Below, piece by piece: positions 44,644-58,343 of a stretch of 64,000 nt of DNA. Numbering within the stretch: the stretch's first letter is position 1; the number at the start of each line of letters is the position of its first letter. The position numbers and the translations under genes were made by a program. The stretch is from an uncultured Tateyamaria sp. GTDB taxonomy: Bacteria > Pseudomonadota > Alphaproteobacteria > Rhodobacterales > Rhodobacteraceae. The stretch spans positions 1-64,000 of the forward strand of contig NZ_CANLAG010000005.1 of assembly GCF_947488715.1 (NCBI RefSeq), in the 5' to 3' direction. Below the pieces are notes generated by a model. That model worked only from the letters and a program-made list of their open reading frames with translations. It did not search any database and was not told the origin of the DNA.

Positions 44644-45198
44644 TTACGGCGCCACCCAGGTTCCGCGCCAATCCGTATCCGCACTAAAGACTGCGCGGCG
44701 ATGGCGTGCGCCCAACTGCACGATATCCATCTCTGTGACGGCACAGAGCAACACGGCAAAACGCGCGCGCAACGCCGGTTTTTCATAGGCATGGACGTGG
44801 TCAATCGGGGTGCCGGGCAAGGGGTTCGTGCCATAGGATACCCGCGAGGCCACTGGAACAGATGCCCAGGCCGCGTCGACCTCCGGGCCTGTCACGATCT
44901 CAACCTTCGTCGTCAGACGAATTTGCAGGTCCGCGCGCGGCACCCATACGTGCAGGGCCGCAAACTGGGCGTGGCGCAGGGACGCGACCTTGGGCGTGTC
45001 CACATCCGTATGAACCTCGACCTCTCGCGCGCTGACTGAGGCCCGGCGCATGGCGACTGTGCGAGCCTCCGGCATTCCGGACGGCGATACGGTCGCAAAG
45101 GTTGGAAACCGCGCGGGATGCCTGCTGTCTGCGGCACCACGGGCCAAATGTTGCCACGCCAGGTCGTAAAAGGCCTGCAAATCGTTTGGGTCACTCAT
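44644..45198 (-). CDS. Pyridoxamine 5'-phosphate oxidase-family flavoprotein
   Basis: A 184-residue split-barrel FMN protein. RTVAMRRASVSAREVEVHTD and PKVASLRHAQFAALHVW are typical of the PNPOx-like fold, with RFAVLLCAVTEMDIVQL at the dimer interface. It is smaller than and lacks the full C-terminus of PdxH, so it is more likely a general FMN or F420-type protein than the pyridoxal-phosphate enzyme. It overlaps the AttH-like gene start by 8 bases and is the last gene of the ABC/FtsX operon. Confidence 0.65.
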   Translation of the reverse strand: MSDPNDLQAFYDLAWQHLARGAADSRHPARFPTFATVSPSGMPEARTVAMRRASVSAREVEVHTDVDTPKVASLRHAQFAALHVWVPRADLQIRLTTKVEIVTGPEVDAAWASVPVASRVSYGTNPLPGTPIDHVHAYEKPALRARFAVLLCAVTEMDIVQLGARHRRAVFSADTDWRGTWVAP

Positions 45199-46234
45199 AA
45201 CCTGTCATCTCCAGATATCCTTGCCCCGTGTGACTGCCGCTCACCCGCACCGGACCTTCCCAATAGGGGATCGAAAGGTCCATCCATGCCTGCGGGTTCA
45301 GCGCCTCGACCGTCACATCCACCTGACGGTCCGGCACGGCGACGCGCCAACGGGTTGGCACCTTACGCCCCGCAACATCGGTGATTTCGCGCGGTTCGAC
45401 CTGCACAATCCCGTCCGGGATCGGCGTCGCATTGCCATCGGCATTAATCCAAGTGCCAGAGCTAAAGCTGTCCCCATCGCTCTGGCGCAACCGAAACGCC
45501 ATCAGCTTGTTGCCATCGTCCAGCGACAACGAAAACCAGTCCCAGCCCGTCTGCGTCTCGCTCAGCGGTTGCGAGGACCACTCGCGGTCCAGCCATGCCG
45601 ACCCCGTGACCTGCACCGGCCCGTCCGGCAAGGTTAGCGTGCCTTCGATGTTGTAGGACGGCTGCGAATAGTAATAGCTCGCTTGCCCCTCGGTCGATTT
45701 GACCGAATAGCCATCGCGCCCGTGAAAGACGAGCGGGCCGTCGGCGGTCAACGCCATGTCATAGGCAAAATCCTGACCCGACGCGTTCAGCGCCAAGGTG
45801 TCAAAGTCCGGCCCCCTGAGCGCCCATTCGTCGATCCACGCCTCGAACGGTGCGGCGGTTACACCGGCCTGTCCGATGCCACCACGCGCAAACCGCTCGC
45901 TGGCGTGGTGCGCCTCTGGGGTCGTCACGGCGGCATGCGCAAACCAGACCTGTGGCGATGACCAACCCGCGGCCTCTCCGGGGGCGAGGGCGGACCGAAA
46001 GAGCGTCCATTGCAACCCATAGGCCGTGCCATTGGCATCTGTCAGGTTTGCCGTGATGTACCACCATTCGATCCGGTAATCCGGGTGCGGGCCATGGTCC
46101 TCGGGAAAGGTGAATTGCGGATCAGGGCGCGGCATTGCAAAGCCGTCGTCCGCCGTCGACCCTAACCCGGAAAACCCCTGCGCCATCGCGCATACCGGCC
46201 AAAGCATGAGAAACAGGATCAGCCTAACGTTCAT
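45191..46234 (-). CDS. AttH/CrtC-like lipocalin-domain secreted protein
   Basis: A 347-residue exported protein. The N-terminal RLILFLMLWPVCAMAQG is a signal peptide. YRIEWWYITANLTDANG near residue 55 and SAWLDREWSSQPLSETQTG are hallmarks of the AttH/hydroxyneurosporene-synthase (DUF1298-like carotenoid-1,2-hydratase) family, which has two lipocalin-like domains. The location downstream of an ABC ATPase and an FtsX-type permease fits the attEFGH arrangement of Agrobacterium, where the protein is exported or anchored. The ATG at 46234 follows AAGGTG. Ligand and role are unknown. Confidence 0.75.
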   Translation of the reverse strand: MNVRLILFLMLWPVCAMAQGFSGLGSTADDGFAMPRPDPQFTFPEDHGPHPDYRIEWWYITANLTDANGTAYGLQWTLFRSALAPGEAAGWSSPQVWFAHAAVTTPEAHHASERFARGGIGQAGVTAAPFEAWIDEWALRGPDFDTLALNASGQDFAYDMALTADGPLVFHGRDGYSVKSTEGQASYYYSQPSYNIEGTLTLPDGPVQVTGSAWLDREWSSQPLSETQTGWDWFSLSLDDGNKLMAFRLRQSDGDSFSSGTWINADGNATPIPDGIVQVEPREITDVAGRKVPTRWRVAVPDRQVDVTVEALNPQAWMDLSIPYWEGPVRVSGSHTGQGYLEMTGYE

Positions 46235-48593
46235 TTGCAAACACCTTGAGCAAAACAGCCGGAGGCACCCGCATCAAACGGCGTGCAGGCCACGCAGCGG
46301 CCAACCCGGCGGCGGCCAGCGCATAGGCCCCCAGACGGGCATAGTCGACCGGAAACAGGAACATCGGCAAGCGCCAGCCAAATGCCTCCACGTTGACAAC
46401 TGACAGCAGCACCCACGCCAATGCCAACCCCAGCGGCAGGGCGCAGACAAACACCAACGCCGACAACGCCACCGCGCGCAACAGCTCCAGCTGCCCCAAC
46501 CGCGCACGGGTCAGACCCAGCGCCCAGACAGGGGCCAACTGCGGCACCCGCAGATCGGCGAGGGTCAAAAGGCTCATCAGGATGGCAAATCCGGCCACCC
46601 CCAATGTCAGCACATTCAACGCCGCCGTCACGGTAAATGTCCGCTCGAACACGTCCAGCGACACAGCCTTGATTGCGGCCTGATCGGTGATGTCGCTGTC
46701 GGTTAGATCAAGCGCACGCACCAGGTCGGTGCGCAGGGCGCTGGCATTGTCTGTGCGGATGCCGAACTGCGTCGGAAAGACATCGGGGTGCAATGTGCCG
46801 AACATGTCGGCGGCAATGACAACCTGACCCTGCGGATTGCCATAATCCCCAACAATGCCCGCAATCGGCAATGGATCGGCACCATCCACCGTAACCTCAT
46901 CCCCGATCCACAGATCACTGCGCCGGGCCAATTGCTCATTGATCACGGCGGCCTCGCCCCGCTCCACCCGGTCCCAGGCATCCGGTGAAGCATCCAGAAA
47001 CACCCAATCGTCGCGATAGGTGGGGCCAACGCGGATGCCGAACAGACGCACAGGCAGCCCTGCCGCCACACCCGGCACCGACAACAGCGGCAGCGTCTCA
47101 AGGTCCCGGTCCTCGAGATAGGCCATCAGGGCAGTGCTCTGCGCCTCGGTTTCGACCCGCACAAACAGCTCCGGCGCAAGGCGTTGATCCAGAAACCCGA
47201 CAAAGGTCAAACGAAAGCTCGACACCATCGTCGACACCCCGATATTCGCCGATACCGCCAACAGCAGCGCCATGAGCGCAAGGCTCAACCCCGGCAATTG
47301 TTGCCGCGTGTCGGCCCAGAACCAGCGCCAGACCGGCGCCGTTGTCATCCGTTCAAACCGGCCCATCATCCAACCCGCAACGGCGGGCAGCGCCAGTGCC
47401 GCCCCAATCAACAGGCAGGCGAGCAACGCAAAGGCTGCCAACAGCCCATCGGCCAGCAGGGCCAGCAGCCCGGCGGCGCCCAACAGTCCCAGCGCCGCCC
47501 CCGTTTGCGCCCGCAACCGAACCCCGCTTGCCATGACCCACGCGCGGGGCCGTGCGCTTGCCAACAGGGGCATACGCGCGATGTCCCACAACCGGCTGGC
47601 CAGCGCTGCGGCGGTGCCAAACATCGCCAGCAAAAACCCGGTCAGCCACCATTCTGGCCGCACCGCCAGCGTGCCGGACACATCGGCCCCGTACAGCCCC
47701 TTGAGCGTCGCCGCCACGTCGGGCAGCAACAGCGCCGCGATCACATAGCCCAGGACAATTCCGACCACCGCCCCAAGTGCGGCGAGCGTCATCATTTCCA
47801 CGCAGATCACCGTCACCAACAGGCGCATCGGCACACCAAGCGACCGCAACGTCCGTATCATCCCGCGCCGCTGTTCAAAGGCGAGGCCAATCGTGCTGTG
47901 CACAATGAACAGCCCAACGGCAAAGCTGAGCAATCCGAAGGCGGTGAGGTTGAGATGAAAGCTGTCCGTCAGTTGTGCAATATCTGCGGTTTGTTGCGAT
48001 GCTTGCCGCTTCAGTTCGGGCGGTAGGGCAGGGCGGTCAGCTTGTGCAAAGGGCTGGTCCGGCAGAACCATCAAACGCGTCAGCGTGTCCCGCTCTGCCA
48101 GCCTCAGAACCAACCCGACGTCGCCCATGGCAAGGCCGGGGCCAATCGACGGGTCGACCACCACATCCGCCAACCCACTCAGGCCCGCCGCCGTTTCCGC
48201 ATTGGCAAACAGCGCGTCCAGACGGCCCATACCACCGGCACCCGCCTGCGCAAAAGCCGTCGCAGCCAGAGGGGAGGTCAGCGGGTCGATCCCAATCACG
48301 CGGACACCGTTCAGCGTGGTCTCAACAACCGGGGACACCAACCATCCTGCACGGCGCAGCGCGACATAGGTGTCCACGGCAATCGCGTCGCCACGTCGCG
48401 GAACGAGTTGATCGTATTGCCCCTCACCCAAAGTGTTCGCGGCCGCGTCATAGCTGGCCCGCGCTTCGGAATTTATCGCCTGCACACCCGACCACAGACC
48501 CGTCGCCAGCGCCAACCCCGCAAGAAAGGCAAAAAGCTGAACAGGGTTCCGCCGCCAATGCGACAGCAGCGCCGCAAAACAGGCCCGGATCAC
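46224..48593 (-). CDS. FtsX-like ABC transporter permease
   Basis: A 789-residue permease with two FtsX domains, each with four transmembrane segments and a large extracytoplasmic loop: an N-terminal copy (residues about 15-360) and a C-terminal copy (about 400-789). Hydrophobic segments such as TVICVEMMTLAALGAVVGIV and AVALSALVFVCALPLGLAL mark them. The start is a GTG at 48593 that overlaps the ATPase stop (GTGA). Members of this family act in lipoprotein release, antibiotic efflux or secretion. The lipocalin gene next to it suggests a lipid or hydrophobic ligand. Confidence 0.82.
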   Translation of the reverse strand: MIRACFAALLSHWRRNPVQLFAFLAGLALATGLWSGVQAINSEARASYDAAANTLGEGQYDQLVPRRGDAIAVDTYVALRRAGWLVSPVVETTLNGVRVIGIDPLTSPLAATAFAQAGAGGMGRLDALFANAETAAGLSGLADVVVDPSIGPGLAMGDVGLVLRLAERDTLTRLMVLPDQPFAQADRPALPPELKRQASQQTADIAQLTDSFHLNLTAFGLLSFAVGLFIVHSTIGLAFEQRRGMIRTLRSLGVPMRLLVTVICVEMMTLAALGAVVGIVLGYVIAALLLPDVAATLKGLYGADVSGTLAVRPEWWLTGFLLAMFGTAAALASRLWDIARMPLLASARPRAWVMASGVRLRAQTGAALGLLGAAGLLALLADGLLAAFALLACLLIGAALALPAVAGWMMGRFERMTTAPVWRWFWADTRQQLPGLSLALMALLLAVSANIGVSTMVSSFRLTFVGFLDQRLAPELFVRVETEAQSTALMAYLEDRDLETLPLLSVPGVAAGLPVRLFGIRVGPTYRDDWVFLDASPDAWDRVERGEAAVINEQLARRSDLWIGDEVTVDGADPLPIAGIVGDYGNPQGQVVIAADMFGTLHPDVFPTQFGIRTDNASALRTDLVRALDLTDSDITDQAAIKAVSLDVFERTFTVTAALNVLTLGVAGFAILMSLLTLADLRVPQLAPVWALGLTRARLGQLELLRAVALSALVFVCALPLGLALAWVLLSVVNVEAFGWRLPMFLFPVDYARLGAYALAAAGLAAAWPARRLMRVPPAVLLKVFANER

Positions 48594-49267
48594 ACCAAAA
48601 CCCCGTTCCGCAGGTGCAATTGCGTGTTCATCCGGGCGGCGATGGCGGGCGAATGGGTCACAATCATCAGGGCCGCGCCCGTCTGCGCCACCAGCCGCAG
48701 CATTTCGTCCATGACATCCCGCGCGGTGGCTTCGTCGAGGTTGCCCGTCGGCTCATCCGCGAGCATCAGCTTGGGCTTAGCTGCCAATGCGCGCGCGATG
48801 GCGACCCGCTGCTGCTGCCCACCTGACAGCGCCTCCGGGTATTTGTGCAGATGCGCGCCCAGCCCAAGCGCCTGCACCAAATTGTCGATATGCGCGGGAT
48901 CGACGCGATCTGACAACGCGGCCTGAAAGCCGATGTTCGCGGCCACAGTCATGGACGGGATCAGGTTGAACTGCTGAAACACCAGCGCGATCTCGGTCCG
49001 GCGGAACGCGGCCAGCGCCGCATCACGCATCGCCGTCAAATCGTGGCCGGACACCTTGACCTTGCCCGCGTCCGGCGCATCCAGCCCGCCCGCAATATGC
49101 AAGAGCGTGCTCTTGCCGCTGCCGGATTCCCCGGTCAGGGCAACGGTCTCACCCGCGTTCACCGCAAAACTGACACCGCGCAGCACGGGAATGTCACCTG
49201 CGCTGTCGCGGTATGATTTTTTGACGTAATTAAGCTCTAGCAGCACGGTGTACCCCTGTTCGGGCAT
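48590..49267 (-). CDS. ABC transporter ATP-binding protein, LolD/MacB type
   Basis: A 225-residue ATPase. Walker A is GESGSGKSTLL, the signature motif is ALSGGQQQRVAIARAL, and Walker B is LMLADEPTGNLDEATA. Membership of the MacB/LolD/FtsE group follows from length and partner type. The start is set at the ATG at 49267; GTG at 49246 after AGGGG is a possible shorter start. It is the first gene of the operon and energises the FtsX-type permease encoded next. Confidence 0.86.
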   Translation of the reverse strand: MPEQGYTVLLELNYVKKSYRDSAGDIPVLRGVSFAVNAGETVALTGESGSGKSTLLHIAGGLDAPDAGKVKVSGHDLTAMRDAALAAFRRTEIALVFQQFNLIPSMTVAANIGFQAALSDRVDPAHIDNLVQALGLGAHLHKYPEALSGGQQQRVAIARALAAKPKLMLADEPTGNLDEATARDVMDEMLRLVAQTGAALMIVTHSPAIAARMNTQLHLRNGVLV

Positions 49268-49541: not shown

Positions 49542-51395
49542 TTGAATCCGCACGACAATTGGGAACACGTTCGCGAGGCGACAAAACAATTCGATTTGAA
49601 CCCGGCGGAAAGCATCATGGTCTTTGCCATGAACGCCGGGGTCTACGGAAATCGCGAGAAAATTCTGGCCCGGCTCAAGGGAGATCTGCAAGCCGCGATC
49701 TCTGTCGAATTGGCCACCATTCCGATCTATCTCTACACCTACTACTCGATCGACCGGACGGTGAATTCGGGGCGCGACCTGACCGATACATCGCGCTTTG
49801 CGAACGAGGCGGGCGCGGTGATCATGTCCGTCGCCGTCGAAGAGATGCTGCACATGTCCTTGTCCAGCAACATCTACTTTGCCCTGACCGGCGCGCCGCC
49901 CCAACTGTACATGGCCGCCCCTGCGACTTACCCGACCATGCTGCCACACCACAATCCGGTGGGACCACCGGGCCCACAAGGCGGCACCGACACGCACATC
50001 CCGCTCAAGGGGCTCAGCTTTGAACAGCTGTGGCATTTCCTGCAAATCGAATACCCGCAGGGGCCCATCAATCTGGTGATGGATGTGGTCGAACTGTTCG
50101 ACCCCGAGCTGAAATGGCAAACGACCATGGATCCCGCGCAAGTCACGGCTGATCTGGGCAAATTGCTGCACGGTCTGGGATGGCCTTCGGACGAGAACTG
50201 GAACTCGATTGGTCAGTTCTATTCGTTCATCCGGTGCATGATCGCCTGCGCCCATGTCACCGAAGAGGACTTTCAAACCGGTCTTGCCGCGCGCCAGATC
50301 CAGCCGCTGAACTATTCGCCCAACAACGTCGACACGATCTACGCCAAGGCCAAGTTCAACAAGAAAGCGCCTGCACCGGCGGCGGGCTGTGGTGCGGCGC
50401 AAACCGCGTCGAAACTGCCTCACGCGTCCGAAGTGGCGGTGTACACCGACGAACCCGACAGCCACGCGGGTGGCCACGAAGGTGACTGGGGTGAGGACAA
50501 CGAGCTGATCACCGTCGCCAGCAAGACGCAGGCGATGATCGCCCTTCAGACGATTTGCGAGCAGGGCGAGGGCTACAAGGACGCCTTTGGCGCCGAAAAC
50601 AACACCGACGACCCGCAAAAGGCCGCCGGTGGCGGTGGCCCTGCAGATGTGCGCAACTACGAACCCGAAGAAAGCCATTTCTTCAAGTTCCTGCGTCTTC
50701 AGGCCCAGTTCGTCGAATACGACCAGCACAAGGAAAAGCTGCCCGAGTGGATGGCCGCCGAGATCAAGGAGATGGAGCTTGAGGAACTGCTCGAGCACCA
50801 ATACGCCAAACGCACCGCCGCCAGCCTGATTGACGGCGGCATGGTCTATGACGTGCCGACCAGCCCCGTTAGCGCGCAATATCCGCCCGCTTATGCCGCG
50901 CTGAACGACTTCAACAGCGGTCTGTTCCAGTACATGCTGATCCTGTCCGAAACGATCTATCTGGTGAAACCCGAGATGATCGGACCGAACAAGAAGGTGC
51001 ACAGCCAGCAGCAGTTCTTTAACATCGCGCTGCACCGGTCGATGATCTGGATCATGGACAAGTGGATCCAGATGATGCGCGAACTGGACCCGATGGCTGA
51101 CGGTCCGCACGCGGGCAAGATCATGGGGCCAACCTTTGAGAACCTCAGCCTCGGCACGCGGGAAAATGCCTTTGACGCTCTTGTAGCGCTGGGCGACCGC
51201 GCCGTTGCGGCATCCTCGGCCTTTGATGCATCAACACAAAGCAACATCGCGCACCTTGTCGCCAAGGCGGTCAGCCTGATGAGCACGGACGGCAAGGACC
51301 CAATGCACCTGCCCAACGTGCAGGACCATTGGAACGGCAACACACCCATCAACCCGACGCCCGCCGACACCTCCGGCGCGATTGCGGCTGAATAG
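49542..51395 (+). CDS. Ferritin-like protein of the RebD/VioB C-terminal (iminophenyl-pyruvate dimer synthase) family
   Basis: A 617-residue protein. LKGDLQAAISVELATIPIYL (residues about 45-65) and AVAVEEMLHMSLSSN (about 105-120) form the four-helix ferritin-like domain with Glu and His ligand candidates, as in the ferritin-like region of VioB/RebD. The N-terminal large catalytic domain of VioB is absent. A GGGGAGG Shine-Dalgarno sequence about 5 bases before the TTG at 49542 decides the start. A Cys-rich peptide gene, an MNIO gene and a DUF2063 gene follow in tight succession, so it probably works in that RiPP pathway. Role inferred: oxidative or metal-dependent chemistry. Confidence 0.75.
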   Translation: MNPHDNWEHVREATKQFDLNPAESIMVFAMNAGVYGNREKILARLKGDLQAAISVELATIPIYLYTYYSIDRTVNSGRDLTDTSRFANEAGAVIMSVAVEEMLHMSLSSNIYFALTGAPPQLYMAAPATYPTMLPHHNPVGPPGPQGGTDTHIPLKGLSFEQLWHFLQIEYPQGPINLVMDVVELFDPELKWQTTMDPAQVTADLGKLLHGLGWPSDENWNSIGQFYSFIRCMIACAHVTEEDFQTGLAARQIQPLNYSPNNVDTIYAKAKFNKKAPAPAAGCGAAQTASKLPHASEVAVYTDEPDSHAGGHEGDWGEDNELITVASKTQAMIALQTICEQGEGYKDAFGAENNTDDPQKAAGGGGPADVRNYEPEESHFFKFLRLQAQFVEYDQHKEKLPEWMAAEIKEMELEELLEHQYAKRTAASLIDGGMVYDVPTSPVSAQYPPAYAALNDFNSGLFQYMLILSETIYLVKPEMIGPNKKVHSQQQFFNIALHRSMIWIMDKWIQMMRELDPMADGPHAGKIMGPTFENLSLGTRENAFDALVALGDRAVAASSAFDASTQSNIAHLVAKAVSLMSTDGKDPMHLPNVQDHWNGNTPINPTPADTSGAIAAE

Positions 51396-51411
51396 GGCAG
51401 GGAGACACCAA

Positions 51412-51978
51412 ATGAGCACAACAGACACCAAAGACCCCGCAGTCCCCCATTTCAACATCGAGGGCTTCAAACGCGTGCCCGTGCCGGGCGAGGAACTGCA
51501 CGCCTGCATGGGCCTGAACAAATGCGCTGGTCAGGACAAATACGGCATGGATGGTGCGCCAGGGTTCGAACCCAACAGCTGCGCGGGCCAGGGCTTTTGC
51601 GCCACCACGGCCATGCACAGTTGCCACACCAACAACAACTGCGCCAACCAGGGCGGATGCGGGCTCTATGGATCGGAATCCGAATTGACCCGACCGGGCC
51701 AGAACGATTGCCGTTCCATGGGCTCCTGCGCGACACCGATCAATGCCGAACGGTTCATCACCACGGGCGGCCTGCGCGGCACCAGCGTCTGGGCGCGGGC
51801 GCGCAAGGTCTTTGCCGAAGCCTACGAGGAAAGCGGCGGCAAGGTCGGCCCACAGCCCGAACACTTCCCGCATGGCCCAACAGCCGAATGGATCAACCAA
51901 CCAGCCGAAGGCGGCTCTTGCTCGTCATACGCGGCTTGCGGGTCCAGCGGCATGTCGGGCGGCGGCAGCTGCGGATGA
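51412..51978 (+). CDS. Cys-rich protein with CX5C repeats, candidate MNIO substrate (RiPP precursor)
   Basis: A 188-residue protein with 12 Cys. Spacing is regular: C32/C38, C57/C63, C71/C77/C83, C100/C106, C170/C176 all are CX5C, plus C187 near the end. Motifs such as CMGLNKC, CAGQGFC and CANQGGC (variants of CxGxxxC) are frequent among substrates of DUF692 iron enzymes. No signal peptide or lipobox is seen, unlike bufferin-type precursors, so it is probably cytoplasmic at synthesis. The ATG of the MNIO gene overlaps its TGA (ATGA), tying the two. It may instead be a metal-binding structural partner. Confidence 0.7.
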   Translation: MSTTDTKDPAVPHFNIEGFKRVPVPGEELHACMGLNKCAGQDKYGMDGAPGFEPNSCAGQGFCATTAMHSCHTNNNCANQGGCGLYGSESELTRPGQNDCRSMGSCATPINAERFITTGGLRGTSVWARARKVFAEAYEESGGKVGPQPEHFPHGPTAEWINQPAEGGSCSSYAACGSSGMSGGGSCG

Positions 51979-52925
51979 CCACACAAAACGGAATTGCGGC
52001 GTTGCCCCAGCTCGGTCTCGGGCTGGGGCTGCGCAACGTCCATTTCGAACACATCCTGACCCACTGGCCCGACGTCGACTGGTTCGAGGCGATCTCGGAA
52101 AACTTCATGGATTCGCAGGGCCGCCCCCGCGACGTCATCCGCAAGGTTGCGGACCGCTATCCCGTCGTGCTGCACGGCGTGTCCCTCTCCATCGGCAGCA
52201 CGGACCCGCTCGACCTCGACTACCTCGCGCGGCTCAAGACGCTGGCCCACGAGGTGCAACCACAATGGGTGTCCGATCACCTGTGCTGGACCGGTGTCAT
52301 GGGACTGAACAGCCACGACCTGCTGCCCGTCCCGCTCAGCGATGAGACACTGGCCCATATCGTGCCGCGCATTCACAAGGTTCAAGAGGTGCTGGGCCGT
52401 CCCCTGATCCTTGAAAACCCCTCTACCTATGTGGGGTTCAAGGACAGCACCATCGAAGAGCCGGACTTTTTGCGGGCGTTGGCGGACCAAACTGGCTGTG
52501 GCCTGCTGCTCGACGTTAACAATGTCTATGTGACCTGTTTTAACGCCGATGCGGATGCGATGGCCTACCTTGACGCGTTCCCATGGGACAAGGTGGTACA
52601 GATGCACCTCGCGGGCCACACCGACTGCGGCACACATATCATCGACACCCACGACCAACCCGTCAGACCAGAGGTCTGGGAACTCTACGCAACCGCCTGG
52701 CAGCGCACGGGCGGCGCTTCGACCCTGCTGGAGTGGGATGGCAACATCCCGGACTTTGACACCTGCCACGCCGAATTGCTCAAATCGCGGGCCTATATGG
52801 GCGGCGCGGGCTTTCAACAGGTGCTGGACGCCGCACAGATCGCCCCCGCGACCGGCGTATCAAACCCGGTCAGTTTTCTCGTACCGGACGTCATGGATGC
52901 AGCCACCCCGGCGGATCAGGGCTGA
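51975..52925 (+). CDS. DUF692 multinuclear non-heme iron oxidase (MNIO)
   Basis: A 316-residue TIM-barrel enzyme of the MbnB family. Metal-ligand candidates visible in order are H67 (VLHGVSLS), D101-H102, E147 (LILENPSTY), D180-N182 (LLLDVNNVY), H211/H215, D224-H226 and E253 (LLEWDGN), so the multi-iron site looks intact. MNIOs modify cysteine in partner peptides to thiooxazole, oxazolone-thioamide or other products. The upstream CX5C protein, with overlapping stop and start, is the natural substrate candidate. The downstream DUF2063 gene starts 3 bases later, as in bufBC/hvfBC pairs. Confidence 0.85.
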   Translation: MTTQNGIAALPQLGLGLGLRNVHFEHILTHWPDVDWFEAISENFMDSQGRPRDVIRKVADRYPVVLHGVSLSIGSTDPLDLDYLARLKTLAHEVQPQWVSDHLCWTGVMGLNSHDLLPVPLSDETLAHIVPRIHKVQEVLGRPLILENPSTYVGFKDSTIEEPDFLRALADQTGCGLLLDVNNVYVTCFNADADAMAYLDAFPWDKVVQMHLAGHTDCGTHIIDTHDQPVRPEVWELYATAWQRTGGASTLLEWDGNIPDFDTCHAELLKSRAYMGGAGFQQVLDAAQIAPATGVSNPVSFLVPDVMDAATPADQG

Positions 52926-52928
52926 TCC

Positions 52929-53720
52929 ATGGCGGATACGCTGACAGACCTGCAACACTGGATGCACCGCGCGCTGCTGCGCCCCGAAGAGGCAAACCCG
53001 CAAGAGGTCGACGCCCGCCTGACACCGCATCCGCGGCTGTCCCCGTCCGGCGCGCTGGCGATCTATCAGCAAAGCTACCGGTTGCGCATCGCGTCCTGCA
53101 TGCGCGAACAGTTTCCGGCGCTGTGCCACGCGCTGGGTCAGGATCTTTTTGACGATTTTGCCGCTGAATATGTGCGCGACTGCCCACCCGAAAGCTATAC
53201 GCTCTACGATCTTGGCCGCCGGTTCGCCGGGTTTCTCGACGCCCAACGCCCAGACCGCGACAGCCAGACCCGCGAGGTGTGGGTCGATTTCGTCATCGAC
53301 CTTGCCCGGTTCGAGCGTGACGTCTTTGTCACCTTTGACGGCCCCGGCGCCGAAGACCTGCCGCCCGCCTCGCCCGCAACCTGTGACGCCGATTTGCGCC
53401 TGAACCCCAGCCTGCGGGTGCGCGCGTACCAGTTCCCGGTTGCGCAATACTACCTCGCCGTCCGAGCCAAGGCCGCGCCCACCCCGCCACCGCCTGCGCC
53501 CAATCACACCGCTATTGTTCGCCAGGATTTCGGCACGCGGATTGTGCCCCTGCGCGCAGGTCATGCCCGCTTCCTGTCGGTGATGACTGAATGTACGACC
53601 GTTGCCTTGGCCCTGGCTGAACTTGGCCCCGGCGCGTTGACCCCCTGGCACGACGATCCCGGCCTGAAAACGGATTGGCTGCGCGCGGGCATGTTCGTGG
53701 CCGCAGACGCACAGACCTAG
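52929..53720 (+). CDS. DUF2063 partner protein of the MNIO
   Basis: A 263-residue protein with the DUF2063 N-terminal helical domain (SLTDLQHWMHRALLRPE-type start, then PSGALAIYQQSYRLRIASCM and LYDLGRRFAGFLD). The C-terminal half is a beta-rich domain that begins around residue 150. DUF2063 proteins (BufC/HvfC) pair with DUF692 enzymes and are thought to present the precursor peptide. Tight spacing to the MNIO gene supports that pairing here. No nucleic-acid motif is evident despite the old annotation as a putative DNA-binding domain. Confidence 0.82.
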   Translation: MADTLTDLQHWMHRALLRPEEANPQEVDARLTPHPRLSPSGALAIYQQSYRLRIASCMREQFPALCHALGQDLFDDFAAEYVRDCPPESYTLYDLGRRFAGFLDAQRPDRDSQTREVWVDFVIDLARFERDVFVTFDGPGAEDLPPASPATCDADLRLNPSLRVRAYQFPVAQYYLAVRAKAAPTPPPPAPNHTAIVRQDFGTRIVPLRAGHARFLSVMTECTTVALALAELGPGALTPWHDDPGLKTDWLRAGMFVAADAQT

Positions 53721-54097: not shown

Positions 54098-54344
54098 TGA
54101 AATCTCGGTCTTTTCCCAACAGATTCAATCTTTAGGTGAAAGTCCCGAAAGAACCCATAACAAAATGCAAGAATTCTATTTCAGGTAGAATATTCGTTGA
54201 ATCGTTTCTGTATGTATCCGGTCACTCTGAATTGCCCGTTCGCAATGGCCCCGATTGACCGGTTCCGGCGCGGTTGAATTGAATACACAAGAGTTTTCAA
54301 ACTGCACACTTGTGCGGCGGAAAATTTGCTGCGATGCTCGAATA

Positions 54345-54728
54345 GTGAGCAGAAAAAGAACGATAGCTGTGCAGGCTCTTGTGGCCCTGTCCCTGTCCGC
54401 ACCGGCAATGGCGATGGACAACCTGGCATCCGTTTTCGCGGGATGCACCGGGCGCATATCGGCCGAGATGGAACATGCCTGGCTGATGAACAGCGACCGC
54501 GCTGATGACCTCGAGGGGTTGCGGCTCCAGTTTGTGACGCTCCTCGATGCGATCACGCCACCCGAACAGGCCCGGCAGGTCCTGCACTTCCGCATAGAGG
54601 CGAAACTGGCACATGCGGCGATGCTCACAACAGCGACCTTTGGCACCGATCCACGCCTCGTTCACATGGCGCAAAATCAGGCGGCACTGCGCGTAAGAGA
54701 CTGCCGAAATCTGTTGCTCGACAGCTGA
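54345..54728 (+). CDS. Small exported hypothetical protein
   Basis: A 127-residue protein (GTG start at 54345). The N-terminal SRKRTIAVQALVALSLSAPAMA is a Sec signal with AxA cleavage. The mature part is helical and polar, with two Cys (AGCTG, DCRNLL). No Shine-Dalgarno sequence is clear, so start choice rests on the signal peptide. It lies about 300 bases before urtA, but no function or shared transcript is shown. Similar small exported proteins precede urea transporters in some Rhodobacterales; that link is only context. Confidence 0.55.
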   Translation: MSRKRTIAVQALVALSLSAPAMAMDNLASVFAGCTGRISAEMEHAWLMNSDRADDLEGLRLQFVTLLDAITPPEQARQVLHFRIEAKLAHAAMLTTATFGTDPRLVHMAQNQAALRVRDCRNLLLDS

Positions 54729-55025
54729 TACTTGCCGAGCAGCCCGCTTTTTGCGCCTATGAAACGGGCATAAACCGCGAAACCTGCCCAAAAATCAAAC
54801 AAATCCCGTTGACAGCACAACAATGCAGCAGGTCGGACTCGGCGCGGGCAAGCACAGCTTCATAAATGCTCAGGCAGTCCGACAGGGGCTGTTTGGAATG
54901 TGCGGCGGCGTTGGCCTGGAAACCTGAACACCACCGCACGTGGCAACATGAAAGTGCCGGGGGTGATATGAGGGTTCTGTTCCTTTTTCGCAATGCCCCT
55001 GGCGTGATGCGCTAGAGGACTCACA

Positions 55026-56303
55026 ATGAAAAAATCCCTTCTCGGAACCACCGCTGCCGTTGTGCTGGGCACTGCTTTGCCCGCATTGGCCTGCGACGCC
55101 CCCATCAAAATCGGCGTGCTGCACTCGCTGTCCGGCACCATGGCAATCTCCGAAACAACTCTCAAAGATACGATGGAAATGCTGGTCGAACAGCAAAACG
55201 CCGCTGGTGGTGTTCTGGGCTGCGATCTCGAAGCCGTCGTCGTTGATCCTGCCTCCGATTGGCCGCTCTTTGCGGAAAAGGCACGCGAATTGCTGACCGT
55301 CCACGAGGTCGACGTGATCTTTGGCAACTGGACATCGGTGTCGCGCAAATCCGTGCTGCCCGTGATCGAGGAATTGAACGGCCTGCTGTTCTACCCCGTG
55401 CAATACGAGGGCGAAGAGTCGTCCAAGAACGTGTTCTACACCGGCGCCGCCCCCAACCAACAGGCGATCCCCGCCACCGATTACTTCCTCGAAGAGCTTG
55501 AGGTCGAGAAATTCGCGCTGCTGGGCACCGACTATGTCTATCCCCGCACAACCAACAACATCCTCGAAGCATACCTCCAGGACAAAGGCATCCCGGCGGA
55601 CGACATCTTCGTCAACTACACGCCCTTCGGTCACTCCGACTGGTCCAAGATTGTGGCTGACGTCGTGGCTCTGGGTGCAGACGGCAAAAAGGTCGGCGTG
55701 ATCTCGACCATCAACGGCGACGCCAATGTCGGCTTCTACAAGGAACTGGCAGCCGCTGGTATCTCTGCCGATGACATCCCCGTCGTCGCCTTCTCCGTTG
55801 GCGAAGAAGAACTGGCAGGCCTCGACACCTCCAACCTCGTTGGCCACCTCGCCGCCTGGAACTATTTCCAGTCTGCCGAATCCGATGCCAACGACGCATG
55901 GGTCGAAGCCTGGAAAGCCCGCATGGGCGAAGAGCGCGTGACCAATGACCCGATGGAGGCGCACTATATCGGCTTCAACATGTGGGTGAACGCGGCCACA
56001 GCCGCAGGCACCACAGACGTCGATGCGGTCCGTACGGCAATGTACGGTCAGGAATTCCCGAACCTGACAGGCGGCACCGCCGTCATGCTGCCCAATCACC
56101 ACTTGGCCAAGCCGGTCCTGATCGGCGAAATCCAGGAAGACGGCCAGTTCGACATCATCAGCCAGACCGCCGAAGTGCCGGGTGACGCATGGACAGACTT
56201 CCTGCCGGAATCGGCCGTGCTGGTCTCCGACTGGAAAGAGCTGGGTTGCGGCATGTACAACACCGAAACCAGCAGCTGCGTACAGATCAAATCCAACTAC
56301 TGA
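55026..56303 (+). CDS. urtA: Urea ABC transporter substrate-binding protein UrtA
   Basis: A 425-residue periplasmic protein. The N-terminal KKSLLGTTAAVVLGTALPAL is a Sec signal ending ALA. The mature region has the UrtA hallmarks IKIGVLHSLSGTMAISETTL, PASDWPLFAEKARELL and PVQYEGEESSKNVFYTGAAPNQ (within these short segments). It binds urea for the UrtBCDE transporter. Length is normal. It is the first gene of urtABCDE; a stem-loop separates it from urtB, which fits higher expression of the binding protein. Promoter: a TTGACA at 54809-54814 has no matching -10. No further feature was seen between 54729 and 55025. Confidence 0.95.
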   Translation: MKKSLLGTTAAVVLGTALPALACDAPIKIGVLHSLSGTMAISETTLKDTMEMLVEQQNAAGGVLGCDLEAVVVDPASDWPLFAEKARELLTVHEVDVIFGNWTSVSRKSVLPVIEELNGLLFYPVQYEGEESSKNVFYTGAAPNQQAIPATDYFLEELEVEKFALLGTDYVYPRTTNNILEAYLQDKGIPADDIFVNYTPFGHSDWSKIVADVVALGADGKKVGVISTINGDANVGFYKELAAAGISADDIPVVAFSVGEEELAGLDTSNLVGHLAAWNYFQSAESDANDAWVEAWKARMGEERVTNDPMEAHYIGFNMWVNAATAAGTTDVDAVRTAMYGQEFPNLTGGTAVMLPNHHLAKPVLIGEIQEDGQFDIISQTAEVPGDAWTDFLPESAVLVSDWKELGCGMYNTETSSCVQIKSNY

Positions 56304-56324
56304 TCTCGCAGATCCAACAAAAAA

Positions 56325-56351
56325 CCGGATGGCGCATCACGCGCCGTCCGG
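56325..56351 (+). other. Intercistronic hairpin between urtA and urtB
   Basis: Arms ccggatggcgc (56325-56335) and gcgccgtccgg (56341-56351) form an 11-bp stem (one T-G) around a 5-base loop. No T tract follows, so mRNA stabilisation of urtA is more likely than termination. Confidence 0.6.
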
Positions 56352-56372
56352 AACACCAAGGAACGGGCTGGC

Positions 56373-58343
56373 ATGCGGCACTTTTTGATTTTGATCTGGA
56401 TGGTCGCATTGTCGTTTTCGGCTTTGACCGTTCCAGCGATGGCACAGAACATGGATGCGCCGATCCAGCAGTTGATGCAGACCCACGGCGACGCACTGGC
56501 CAAGGCATCGCGCAAAACGATCCAGCCCGCCATCGACGCGCTCACGGCCAGCGGCTTGCCCGCCGCCCAGAACGTGATGGAACGCTGGCAGGCCAAGGAG
56601 GTTTGGCGTCACAAGGACACCGGCGCCTTTGTCATTGCCGAAGAGATCGACCGCGACACCATCCGCATCTTTGACCCGTCCGACCGCTCCGAGATCGGTG
56701 AGGCCGAGGACAAGGCCTATAAACAGCTCAAACCCAACAGCGGTGTGCGCGGCATGATCGCCGCCGCCCTCGTGAAATTCCAACTGACCGACGCAGATGC
56801 TCGCGTCCGCGTGACGGCTCTCGACGCGATTTCCCGCGACCCCGAGGCCAGCCACCTTCCAGCACTCCGCGATGTCATCGCAACAGAATCCGACCCAGAC
56901 ATCGCTACGCGCATGACCCGTCTCGAACGCCTGCTGACAATCCAGTTCGGCGCCGACGACGCCGAACGGATCGCCGCCATCGCGCATTTTGAAGGTGACT
57001 TGGGCGTGGACGCCCGCGCGGCACTCAACCCCCTCGTCACCACGCGCGTGCAGGCGGCCCAAGAGCGCCCGGACACGCCCGACGTGCTGGGACCGATCAC
57101 ACCGGGGTCGGATGCCCTGTCCCGAATGGACGCCTACGCGCTTTTGGTCGCAGAAAACCTCGCACCCCCGCTCATTCCCCCCGGCGAAGTCCGCGCCGCC
57201 CTGATCCGCAACATCGACGGCGACACGGTGGCGGGTGTGCAGGTCGCAACCCTGTCCACCGACGCGGCCCGCAACAGCGCCTTTGCCACATTGGTAGAAC
57301 AAGGCCTCGCCGAACCCGCCGCAACGGTTCAGGAAATCGACACAGCACTCGATGCCTTCCAGTTCTTCGAGGTCTACATCGGCGCCCCGCCCACAGTTGC
57401 GCGCGCCGCGCACGATGTTCTCCGCGGGATTGAGGCATCGGTGGCGCTCAACCAAACCGCCGACCTGGCGCTCGACGCCGTCTCGCTCGCGTCGATCTAC
57501 TTCCTCGCCGCCATCGGCCTCGCCATCACCTTTGGCGTCATGGGTGTTATCAACATGGCCCACGGCGAGTTTATCATGATGGGGGCCTACACCGGCTACG
57601 TCGTGCAACTCTTTGTGCCCGACCACACCCTGTCGATCTTGCTGGCCATCCCGCTGGCCTTCATGGTCACCTTCGCGGCAGGTGTTGCGATGGAACGGCT
57701 GGTGATCCGCTGGCTCTACCACCGCCCGCTCGAAACCCTGCTGGCCACCTTTGGTGTGTCCATCGCCCTGCAACAATTGGCCAAGAACATCTTCGGCACC
57801 CAGGCCCGCCCCCTCACGGCACCGGGCTGGCTCGACGGGTCGATGGTGATCAACGATATCGTCTCGATCAGCTATATCCGCATCGCCATCTTCATCCTTG
57901 CGCTGGTGTTCCTCGCCCTGTTCCTGATTGTCATGAACCGCACACGCCTCGGCCTCGAAGTCCGCGCGGTGACGCAAAACCCCCGCATGGCCGCCTCCAT
58001 GGGCATCAACCCCGACCGCATCAACATGCTCACCTTCGGCTTCGGCTCCGGCATCGCCGGCATCGCAGGCGTCGCCATCGGCCTCTACGCCAAGGTGACG
58101 TCGGAAATGGGCGCGGATTACATCGTGCAATCCTTCATGACCGTTGTGGTCGGCGGGGTGGGCAACATCTGGGGCACGCTGCTGGGGGCTACACTGGTCG
58201 GCACCATGCAAAAGGGGATCGAATGGTTGAACCCCTCCAACACCCTCGCCGCCCAGACCTACATGATCCTGTTCATCATCCTCTTCATCCAATTCAGGCC
58301 ACGGGGCATCATCGCCCTCAAAGGCCGCGCAGCGGAGGCATAG
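56373..58343 (+). CDS. urtB: Urea ABC transporter permease UrtB
   Basis: A 656-residue protein. A signal-like N-terminus (RHFLILIWMVALSFSALTVP) precedes a long extracytoplasmic domain (residues about 25-360) typical of proteobacterial UrtB. The membrane permease part starts near residue 370 (AIGLAITFGVMGVINMAHGE) and continues with eight or so transmembrane segments, with GLEVRAVTQNPRMAASMGI as the branched-chain permease loop. It forms the channel with UrtC and is driven by UrtD and UrtE. The next gene starts 3 bases after its stop. Confidence 0.95.
   Translation: MRHFLILIWMVALSFSALTVPAMAQNMDAPIQQLMQTHGDALAKASRKTIQPAIDALTASGLPAAQNVMERWQAKEVWRHKDTGAFVIAEEIDRDTIRIFDPSDRSEIGEAEDKAYKQLKPNSGVRGMIAAALVKFQLTDADARVRVTALDAISRDPEASHLPALRDVIATESDPDIATRMTRLERLLTIQFGADDAERIAAIAHFEGDLGVDARAALNPLVTTRVQAAQERPDTPDVLGPITPGSDALSRMDAYALLVAENLAPPLIPPGEVRAALIRNIDGDTVAGVQVATLSTDAARNSAFATLVEQGLAEPAATVQEIDTALDAFQFFEVYIGAPPTVARAAHDVLRGIEASVALNQTADLALDAVSLASIYFLAAIGLAITFGVMGVINMAHGEFIMMGAYTGYVVQLFVPDHTLSILLAIPLAFMVTFAAGVAMERLVIRWLYHRPLETLLATFGVSIALQQLAKNIFGTQARPLTAPGWLDGSMVINDIVSISYIRIAIFILALVFLALFLIVMNRTRLGLEVRAVTQNPRMAASMGINPDRINMLTFGFGSGIAGIAGVAIGLYAKVTSEMGADYIVQSFMTVVVGGVGNIWGTLLGATLVGTMQKGIEWLNPSNTLAAQTYMILFIILFIQFRPRGIIALKGRAAEA

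Follow-up and report, generated by a model that had tools for sequence, protein, structure and literature searches.

The stretch of DNA considered here, referred to as the window, comprises the first 64,000 nucleotides of contig NZ_CANLAG010000005.1 from an uncultured Tateyamaria sp. It carries four genes in tight order on the plus strand, encoding a ferritin-like protein, a cysteine-rich (Cys-rich) protein, a multinuclear iron oxidase (MNIO) and a DUF2063 partner of the MNIO (Table 1). This arrangement had been proposed, with its coordinates, from a sequence-only reading and was confirmed by open reading frames (ORFs) and Pfam matches; the 12 cysteines of the second protein and the DUF2063 assignment of the fourth likewise stood. 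The ATG of the MNIO gene overlaps the stop codon of the Cys-rich gene by 4 bases. The only other MNIO match in the genome lies in an ordinary Buf1-type bufferin cluster (G000:C4:309788-310576, L002), with a small four-cysteine precursor that has a signal-peptide-like start, an MNIO, a DUF2063 gene and a DoxX gene (the last two confirmed by Pfam), so the locus in the window is a second, different MNIO system in that genome.

The four genes were found together well beyond this genome. When the Cys-rich protein was used as a query against genomes of the family, 4 of 248 matched: the genome itself, one convincing relative (G126) and two weak matches. In G126 the ferritin-like and Cys-rich parts form one ORF of 769 amino acids (aa), followed by MNIO and DUF2063 genes. 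A profile search of the phylum matched 6 of 398 genomes, namely the own genome, a fusion (G341), a divergent fusion (G495), Buf2 precursors in G279 and G585, and one weak match. With a wider profile, 3 of 337 genomes in the class gave a match, of which G896 and G663 were additional divergent fusions; in the class to which G341 belongs, 1 of 78 did. Weak matches also came up in G056, G105 and G605 in these early searches. Three Cys-domain rows were then scanned against the genome collection; 39 of the resulting 87 stretches could be confirmed, and each of these was examined. The order ferritin-like protein, Cys domain, MNIO, DUF2063 partner was kept on one strand in 39 of 39 loci as far as the contigs extend (L055 starts at the Cys gene, L048 stops within it and L051 stops past the MNIO). 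Since the 39 relatives were found through the sequence of the Cys domain and share the gene order, that order exceeds chance, and a chance neighbourhood of the four genes was ruled out. Conservation of the order was the genomic test that the sequence-only reading had set for itself, and the reading passed it.

In 12 of the 39 loci the ferritin-like and Cys domains form one polypeptide, which bears out the claim that the ferritin-like gene belongs to the locus; in the other 27 they do not, L055, whose ferritin-like gene was not seen, being counted as not fused. Three more divergent fusions (L016, L019 and L020) also matched PF12902, and in all three an MNIO gene and a PF09836 gene come next. 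The carriers are Proteobacteria, a cyanobacterium, Myxococcota and metagenome-assembled genomes (MAGs) of other phyla, the named isolates being Methyloglobulus, Novosphingobium, Caulobacter, Thalassospira, Pleionea, Roseobacter-group species, Spirulina, Plesiocystis and Paraliomyxa. The records from Acidobacteria, Actinomycetes and Acidimicrobiia are MAG contigs that could be misbinned. A plasmid search with the Cys protein gave no match, while the ferritin-like protein matched 156 plasmid records (26.7-33.3% identity among the 40 matches listed); 15 candidates from viral contigs yielded no confirmed locus. In the draft contig L053 (8032-12342) the ferritin-like and DUF2063 genes are each split into two frames, probably by sequencing errors.

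Table 1. Coordinates of the four genes and of two segments of the Cys-rich protein in the window
Feature	Position	Strand	Description
Ferritin-like gene	49542-51395	+	TTG start, 617 aa; PF12902 E 1.6e-30 (Pfam)
Cys-rich gene	51412-51978	+	188 aa, 12 Cys; putative MNIO substrate
Buf2/BufA2-like segment of Cys-rich protein	51490-51630	+	residues ~27-73; hhalign
Conserved C-terminal motif of Cys-rich protein	51934-51975	+	in window ACGSSGMSGGGSCG
MNIO gene	51975-52925	+	316 aa; PF05114 E 4.8e-105; NF050167 BufB 351.3 bits
DUF2063 partner gene	52929-53720	+	263 aa; PF09836 E 1e-18

The cysteines of the window protein are residues 32, 38, 57, 63, 71, 77, 83, 100, 106, 170, 176 and 187, with six CX5C spacings. 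The window and the 39 loci gave 40 Cys-domain rows, from which L048 (contig end) and L039 were dropped. Ten of the cysteines were invariant in all 38 remaining rows and an eleventh, Cys187, was present in 37. Conservation of the tail is not confined to cysteine and includes GGCGLYG, CATPINAERF, SVWxRAR and the C-terminal ACGSSGMSGAGGC. At E<=1 neither Pfam nor NCBIfam gave a match for the window protein. Weak matches to the CdeC model in 12 of 34 Cys members (best E 0.0013) were taken as a matter of cysteine composition, and there were a few other chance-level model matches. A hydrophobic N-terminus was absent from all 26 separate Cys proteins whose start was usable, 25 of them relatives and one from the window; their top 15-residue hydropathy mean was 1.17, as compared with 1.66-2.2 in three Buf2 precursors. 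The absence of a signal peptide, which had also been claimed, was thus borne out by this simple hydropathy measure. In L039, a MAG, most of the ferritin-like gene is absent and Cys83 of the Cys protein is replaced by Gly (L039:9506-10651), possibly through joint decay of the pair or a MAG assembly error.

A profile of the 38 Cys domains aligned by hhalign with four Buf2-like precursors at a probability of 96.8% and a score of 56.7. None of 60 column-shuffled controls scored as high (maximum 19.1). The Buf2-like precursors are encoded upstream of other alphaproteobacterial MNIOs, and the two that were tested both exceeded the cut-off of the BufA2 model. The alignment with Buf1 gave a score of 19.9 and 5.4%, leaving a Buf1 relation of the Cys domain unsupported. 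The Cys tails of the divergent fusions aligned with the main Cys domains at 95.9% and a score of 60.4, against a shuffled maximum of 19.4 in 40 controls. From these profile comparisons the Cys domain was concluded to be a remote homologue of the Buf2/BufA2 precursors, without membership in that family. A stand-alone Cys precursor unrelated to bufferins was ruled out by the Buf2 match and its controls, so one part of the earlier claim that the locus is distinct from known types was revised: the locus is distinct, but its Cys protein is a bufferin-2 derivative.

The ferritin-like part matched PF12902 in 33 of 33 members tested. E56, E101xxH104, E170, E343, E376xxH379 and H498 were kept in 38 of 38 rows, a set that excludes L039 and L055. 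The AlphaFold model of the window protein (predicted local distance difference test, pLDDT, 78.3; predicted template modelling score, pTM, 0.83) had 3HL1 as its sole PDB entry at a Foldseek E<=0.001 (E 3.0e-4), and the E, EMLH and QGEG regions of 3HL1 align with the ferritin-like profile. The family is presumably related to the VioB/RebD-type dimerising oxidases. No hydrophobic N-terminus was seen in the window protein and the 12 fusions (15-residue hydropathy mean <=1.05 for the starts tried, several start codons being uncertain).

The MNIO of the window exceeded the cut-off of the NF050167 "bufferin maturase" (BufB) model, 310 bits, the one comparison with the cut-off that was made, and all 39 MNIOs (the window and 38 loci) matched the model at E<=1e-10. 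H67, H102, E147, D180, H211, D224, H226 and E253 were kept in 39 of 39, which agrees with the earlier claim of an intact ligand set; by alignment to solved MNIOs we take these eight residues to be the ligands. In a quick tree of 71 rows the 39 ferritin-associated MNIOs formed one set with a support of 98 (Shimodaira-Hasegawa-like approximate likelihood ratio test, SH-aLRT). Beyond a branch at 97 were four Buf2-associated MNIOs and 24 others, mostly beside Buf1-like precursors, although their neighbours were not checked individually. A very long MNIO row, L089, stands alone, and the deepest joins, those of the three divergent fusions included, lack resolution. The fused or split state would need at least five changes on the tree, but the starred branches by themselves force only one.

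The partners matched PF09836 in 38 of 38 cases, as did those of the three divergent fusions. NGO1945_C was matched by 10 of 38 at E<=0.01 and weakly by the window partner (12.9 bits versus a cut-off of 27). By the PF09836 match the partners fit PME-type 1, that is, DUF2063 with a RiPP recognition element (RRE; RiPP, ribosomally synthesized and post-translationally modified peptide). According to PMC12452194, precursors without a signal peptide go with PME-type 2 partners. A DUF2063 partner combined with a Cys protein that has no signal-peptide-like start therefore makes the module an exception to the correlation in that source, and as such a direct test of what the DUF2063 partner recognizes.

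Alignment with other genomes of the genus delimited the module. Considering alignments longer than 80 bases, the window aligned with the same-genus carrier L058 at 49542-53479 only (78% identity), and with L054 and L116 over parts of the same module genes only. The module was present in 3 of the 20 same-genus genomes listed, the own genome counted. Pairwise distances of the four components were correlated (r 0.60-0.80; 0 of 999 permutations; 35 rows with all four, L053 having been dropped). The same-genus alignments, the sparse carriage and the correlated distances fit transfer of the four genes as a unit. No clean empty site was found in seven same-genus genomes; on the left side there were two short matches in one genome, and on the right, sequence conserved in the genus starts at about 54290-55100.

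Just left of the module in the window (45191-49267), the minus strand encodes a CrtC-like lipocalin protein, an FtsX-type permease and an ABC ATPase; to the right (55026-58343) are genes for a periplasmic binding protein and a branched-chain-type permease, in our reading those of a urea-type transporter. DoxX, frequent in bufferin clusters, was not among the seven window neighbours scanned by Pfam. A survey of the 40 loci, which are of uneven length, by mechanical ORFs and blastp clusters found no consistent companion gene; ABC ATPase-like genes were present in 8 of 40 loci, no more than 10 kb away but not at a fixed position, and the non-ABC clusters in at most 4 of 40 each. A regulator-like gene recurs in four loci. 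Immediately upstream of the module, L026, L027 and L046 have a gene for a THAP4-like heme-binding barrel on the module strand, and L030 has a copy on the opposite strand (in L027, the only locus tested, the match was 17.5 bits, E 0.0047, below the Pfam cut-off). In the related Roseobacter-group loci L047 (12280-13326), L050 and L052 the module is followed closely, on the opposite strand, by a papain-like peptidase gene; that of L047 matched Peptidase_C1 with 21.1 bits versus a cut-off of 20.7. Directly upstream of the module in L058 (2483-7903) are genes for a LodA quinoprotein (LodA_N, LodA_C), a flavin adenine dinucleotide (FAD) protein, an FGE-sulfatase/DinB (EgtB-like) protein and an EgtD-like histidine methyltransferase. 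LodA was seen upstream of the module in this one locus only; PF12902 genes adjoin fungal lodA/lodB genes according to PMC4417212.

The sequence-only reading had called this a RiPP locus. If that is taken to mean a released peptide, it is less likely, because the Cys domain lies within a protein of about 700 aa in a third of the loci and the module has no constant companion gene for export or proteolysis. The reading we prefer, which we hold at about even odds, is that of a self-contained, horizontally mobile module encoding a cytoplasmic ferritin-like metalloprotein with an MNIO-modified, bufferin-2-derived Cys tail, fused or separate, that handles metal or performs an oxidation. According to PMC13097082 and PMC12538549, MNIO-DUF2063 pairs place 5-thiooxazoles on cysteines of bufferins and their kin, and the products bind Cu(I). 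In the window and its relatives the tail, fused to the ferritin-like protein or made as a separate subunit, would be presented by the DUF2063 partner to the MNIO, which would oxidise a number of the CX5C cysteines, the most likely product being 5-thiooxazoles, as it is in the characterised systems. The modified tail would stay attached to, or complexed with, the ferritin-like protein and would add a soft-metal site, most likely for Cu(I), to the carboxylate/histidine site of that protein, the whole assembly handling metal or carrying out an oxidation inside the cell. Since the tail, the MNIO and the partner all have homologues in bufferin systems, the simplest reading is that some tail cysteines are modified, and the fusion in 12 loci implies joint action of the tail and the ferritin-like protein. 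We infer the cytoplasmic location, the modification and its chemistry, the metal, the complex in the split loci and the cellular role.

Several observations weigh against this reading, 1) cysteine modification in the module is a prediction from sequence, 2) a reversed Buf2 control still gave an hhalign score of 25.9 (36.6%), so part of the score is composition, and the middle cysteines pair up incompletely in the alignment, 3) the window protein did not match the BufA2 model NF050166 (cut-off 60 bits), and although 32 of 34 Cys members tested at E<=1 matched it weakly (best 5.6e-6), one Buf1 precursor also matched, at E 0.004, so such weak matches are unspecific, 4) in the AlphaFold model of the fused Methyloglobulus protein the ferritin-like part was mostly confident but the tail scored 31-76 by blocks of ten, so that docking of the tail on the ferritin-like part is not visible, 5) no copper gene was recognised among the recurrent neighbours and 6) the residue after the catalytic Asp was Gly in 33 of 38 readable MNIOs (Asp in three, Ser and Ala in one each). 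Cys-Lys MNIOs carry an Asp beside the catalytic Asp, according to PMC13097082; the corresponding residue was Asp in three of the four Buf2-associated MNIOs and Ala in all three of the divergent fusions. The Gly position would correspond, by alignment to 3BWW, to FonB-Phe250. With Gly instead of the Cys-Lys Asp, substrate preference or product may differ.

As to the role of the tail, a metal store, an enzyme cofactor and a substrate are all compatible with the sequence. A more specific version of the preferred reading, possible but rather doubtful, is that RiPP-type chemistry here serves enzyme maturation: the MNIO would build a heterocycle-metal site in the covalently attached tail of an intracellular ferritin-like oxidase, as a built-in cofactor and not as a peptide product, and the enzyme would have kept its tail through fusion and splitting, perhaps repeated. 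Alternatively, the module might make a metal store or buffer for the cytoplasm: the modified tail would bind Cu(I) as periplasmic bufferins do, while the ferritin-like part oxidises or stores metal, with no other substrate. The kinship of the tail with BufA2 (by its NCBIfam name a periplasmic bufferin-type metallophore), the absence of a hydrophobic N-terminus and a ferritin-like fold with 3HL1 as the nearest solved structure would suit such a store, but cage formation or metal storage by PF12902 proteins would have to be assumed and no metal-regulatory gene was recognised among the recurrent neighbours, and we regard it as unlikely.

Borosins provide a precedent for a different arrangement, since their methyltransferase and precursor are fused. 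By analogy, the ferritin-like protein could be another tailoring enzyme that is fused to, or paired with, the substrate it acts on and that works in sequence with the MNIO, the product perhaps being a released C-terminal peptide. The pair occurs in fused and split forms with the substrate-like domain at the C-terminus, ligand-type residues are kept in the ferritin-like part and ACGSSGMSGAGGC is conserved, and papain-like peptidase genes lie near the module in three loci and ABC ATPase-like genes in eight. Neither gene is a constant companion of the module, however, and much of the tail outside the cysteines is conserved (the GGCGLYG, CATPINAERF and SVWxRAR segments), unlike a small released core; this too seems improbable. 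Loading of the MNIO with iron that the ferritin-like protein provides or oxidises, with the Cys protein as the only product, is very improbable: MNIOs need several irons according to the literature and the genes adjoin, but all 12 fusions join the ferritin-like part to the Cys domain and never to the MNIO, and no ferritin-like gene was seen in the 3.8-kb Buf1 cluster of the own genome, other bufferin clusters not having been searched. That an ordinary bufferin cluster happens by chance to lie next to a ferritin-like gene unrelated to it can practically be dismissed, given the order kept in 39 loci, the fusion in 12 and the separate MNIO set.

The MNIO products known so far are chiefly copper-binding peptides that are exported or reside in the periplasm, whereas here the machinery is tied to an apparently cytoplasmic ferritin-like protein. 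Should the tail prove to be modified, heterocycle chemistry on a peptide would form part of an enzyme or a metal store, and the module suggests that MNIO chemistry can equip an intracellular protein instead of making an exported peptide. It also offers a mechanistic handle on the PF12902 proteins, since for the solved member CC_0557 no function was found in a literature search. No published description of the module was found in the literature searched, although an earlier listing in a supplementary table is possible.

The ferritin-like part shares its Pfam family with CC_0557 (3HL1), but its matched part is longer (421-602 aa) and comes with a Cys tail or partner and an MNIO module. A Rhizobium lentis PF12902 gene adjoins a gene for a GMC oxidoreductase, and its incomplete gene table holds no MNIO or DUF2063 annotation. 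The putative Adjamnio-I precursors in Table 2 of PMC12452194 resemble the Cys protein in having no signal peptide, 122-293 residues, 8-21 cysteines and a gene before that of the MNIO. By the main-text description, rather than by alignment, they are set apart by a PME-type 2 partner, whereas the partners of the module match DUF2063 in 38 of 38 cases, and identity with Adjamnio-I was rejected on the partner type, though some of its members could still be identical. The MerC|Buf2 and Buf1|cytochrome fusions in the same source also join a bufferin domain to another protein, but the MerC fusions are described there as membrane proteins whose bufferin domain is periplasmic. No ferritin-like fusion is among the bufferin-domain fusions described in its text, and the word "ferritin" is absent from its main text. 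The closest system is Bufferin 2 (Buf2/BufA2, the "Cys-Lys" captophorins) with BufB and BufC, which shares with the module a CX5C core with C-x-G-x-N-x-C, an NF050167-type MNIO, a DUF2063 partner and, judging from the Buf order given in PMC12452194, the order precursor-MNIO-DUF2063. The module differs from it in that the Cys protein lacks a hydrophobic N-terminus, has 11 conserved cysteines rather than 6 and carries an extra conserved C-terminal part, in its pairing or fusion with a ferritin-like protein, and in its own MNIO set with mostly Gly at the Cys-Lys Asp site.

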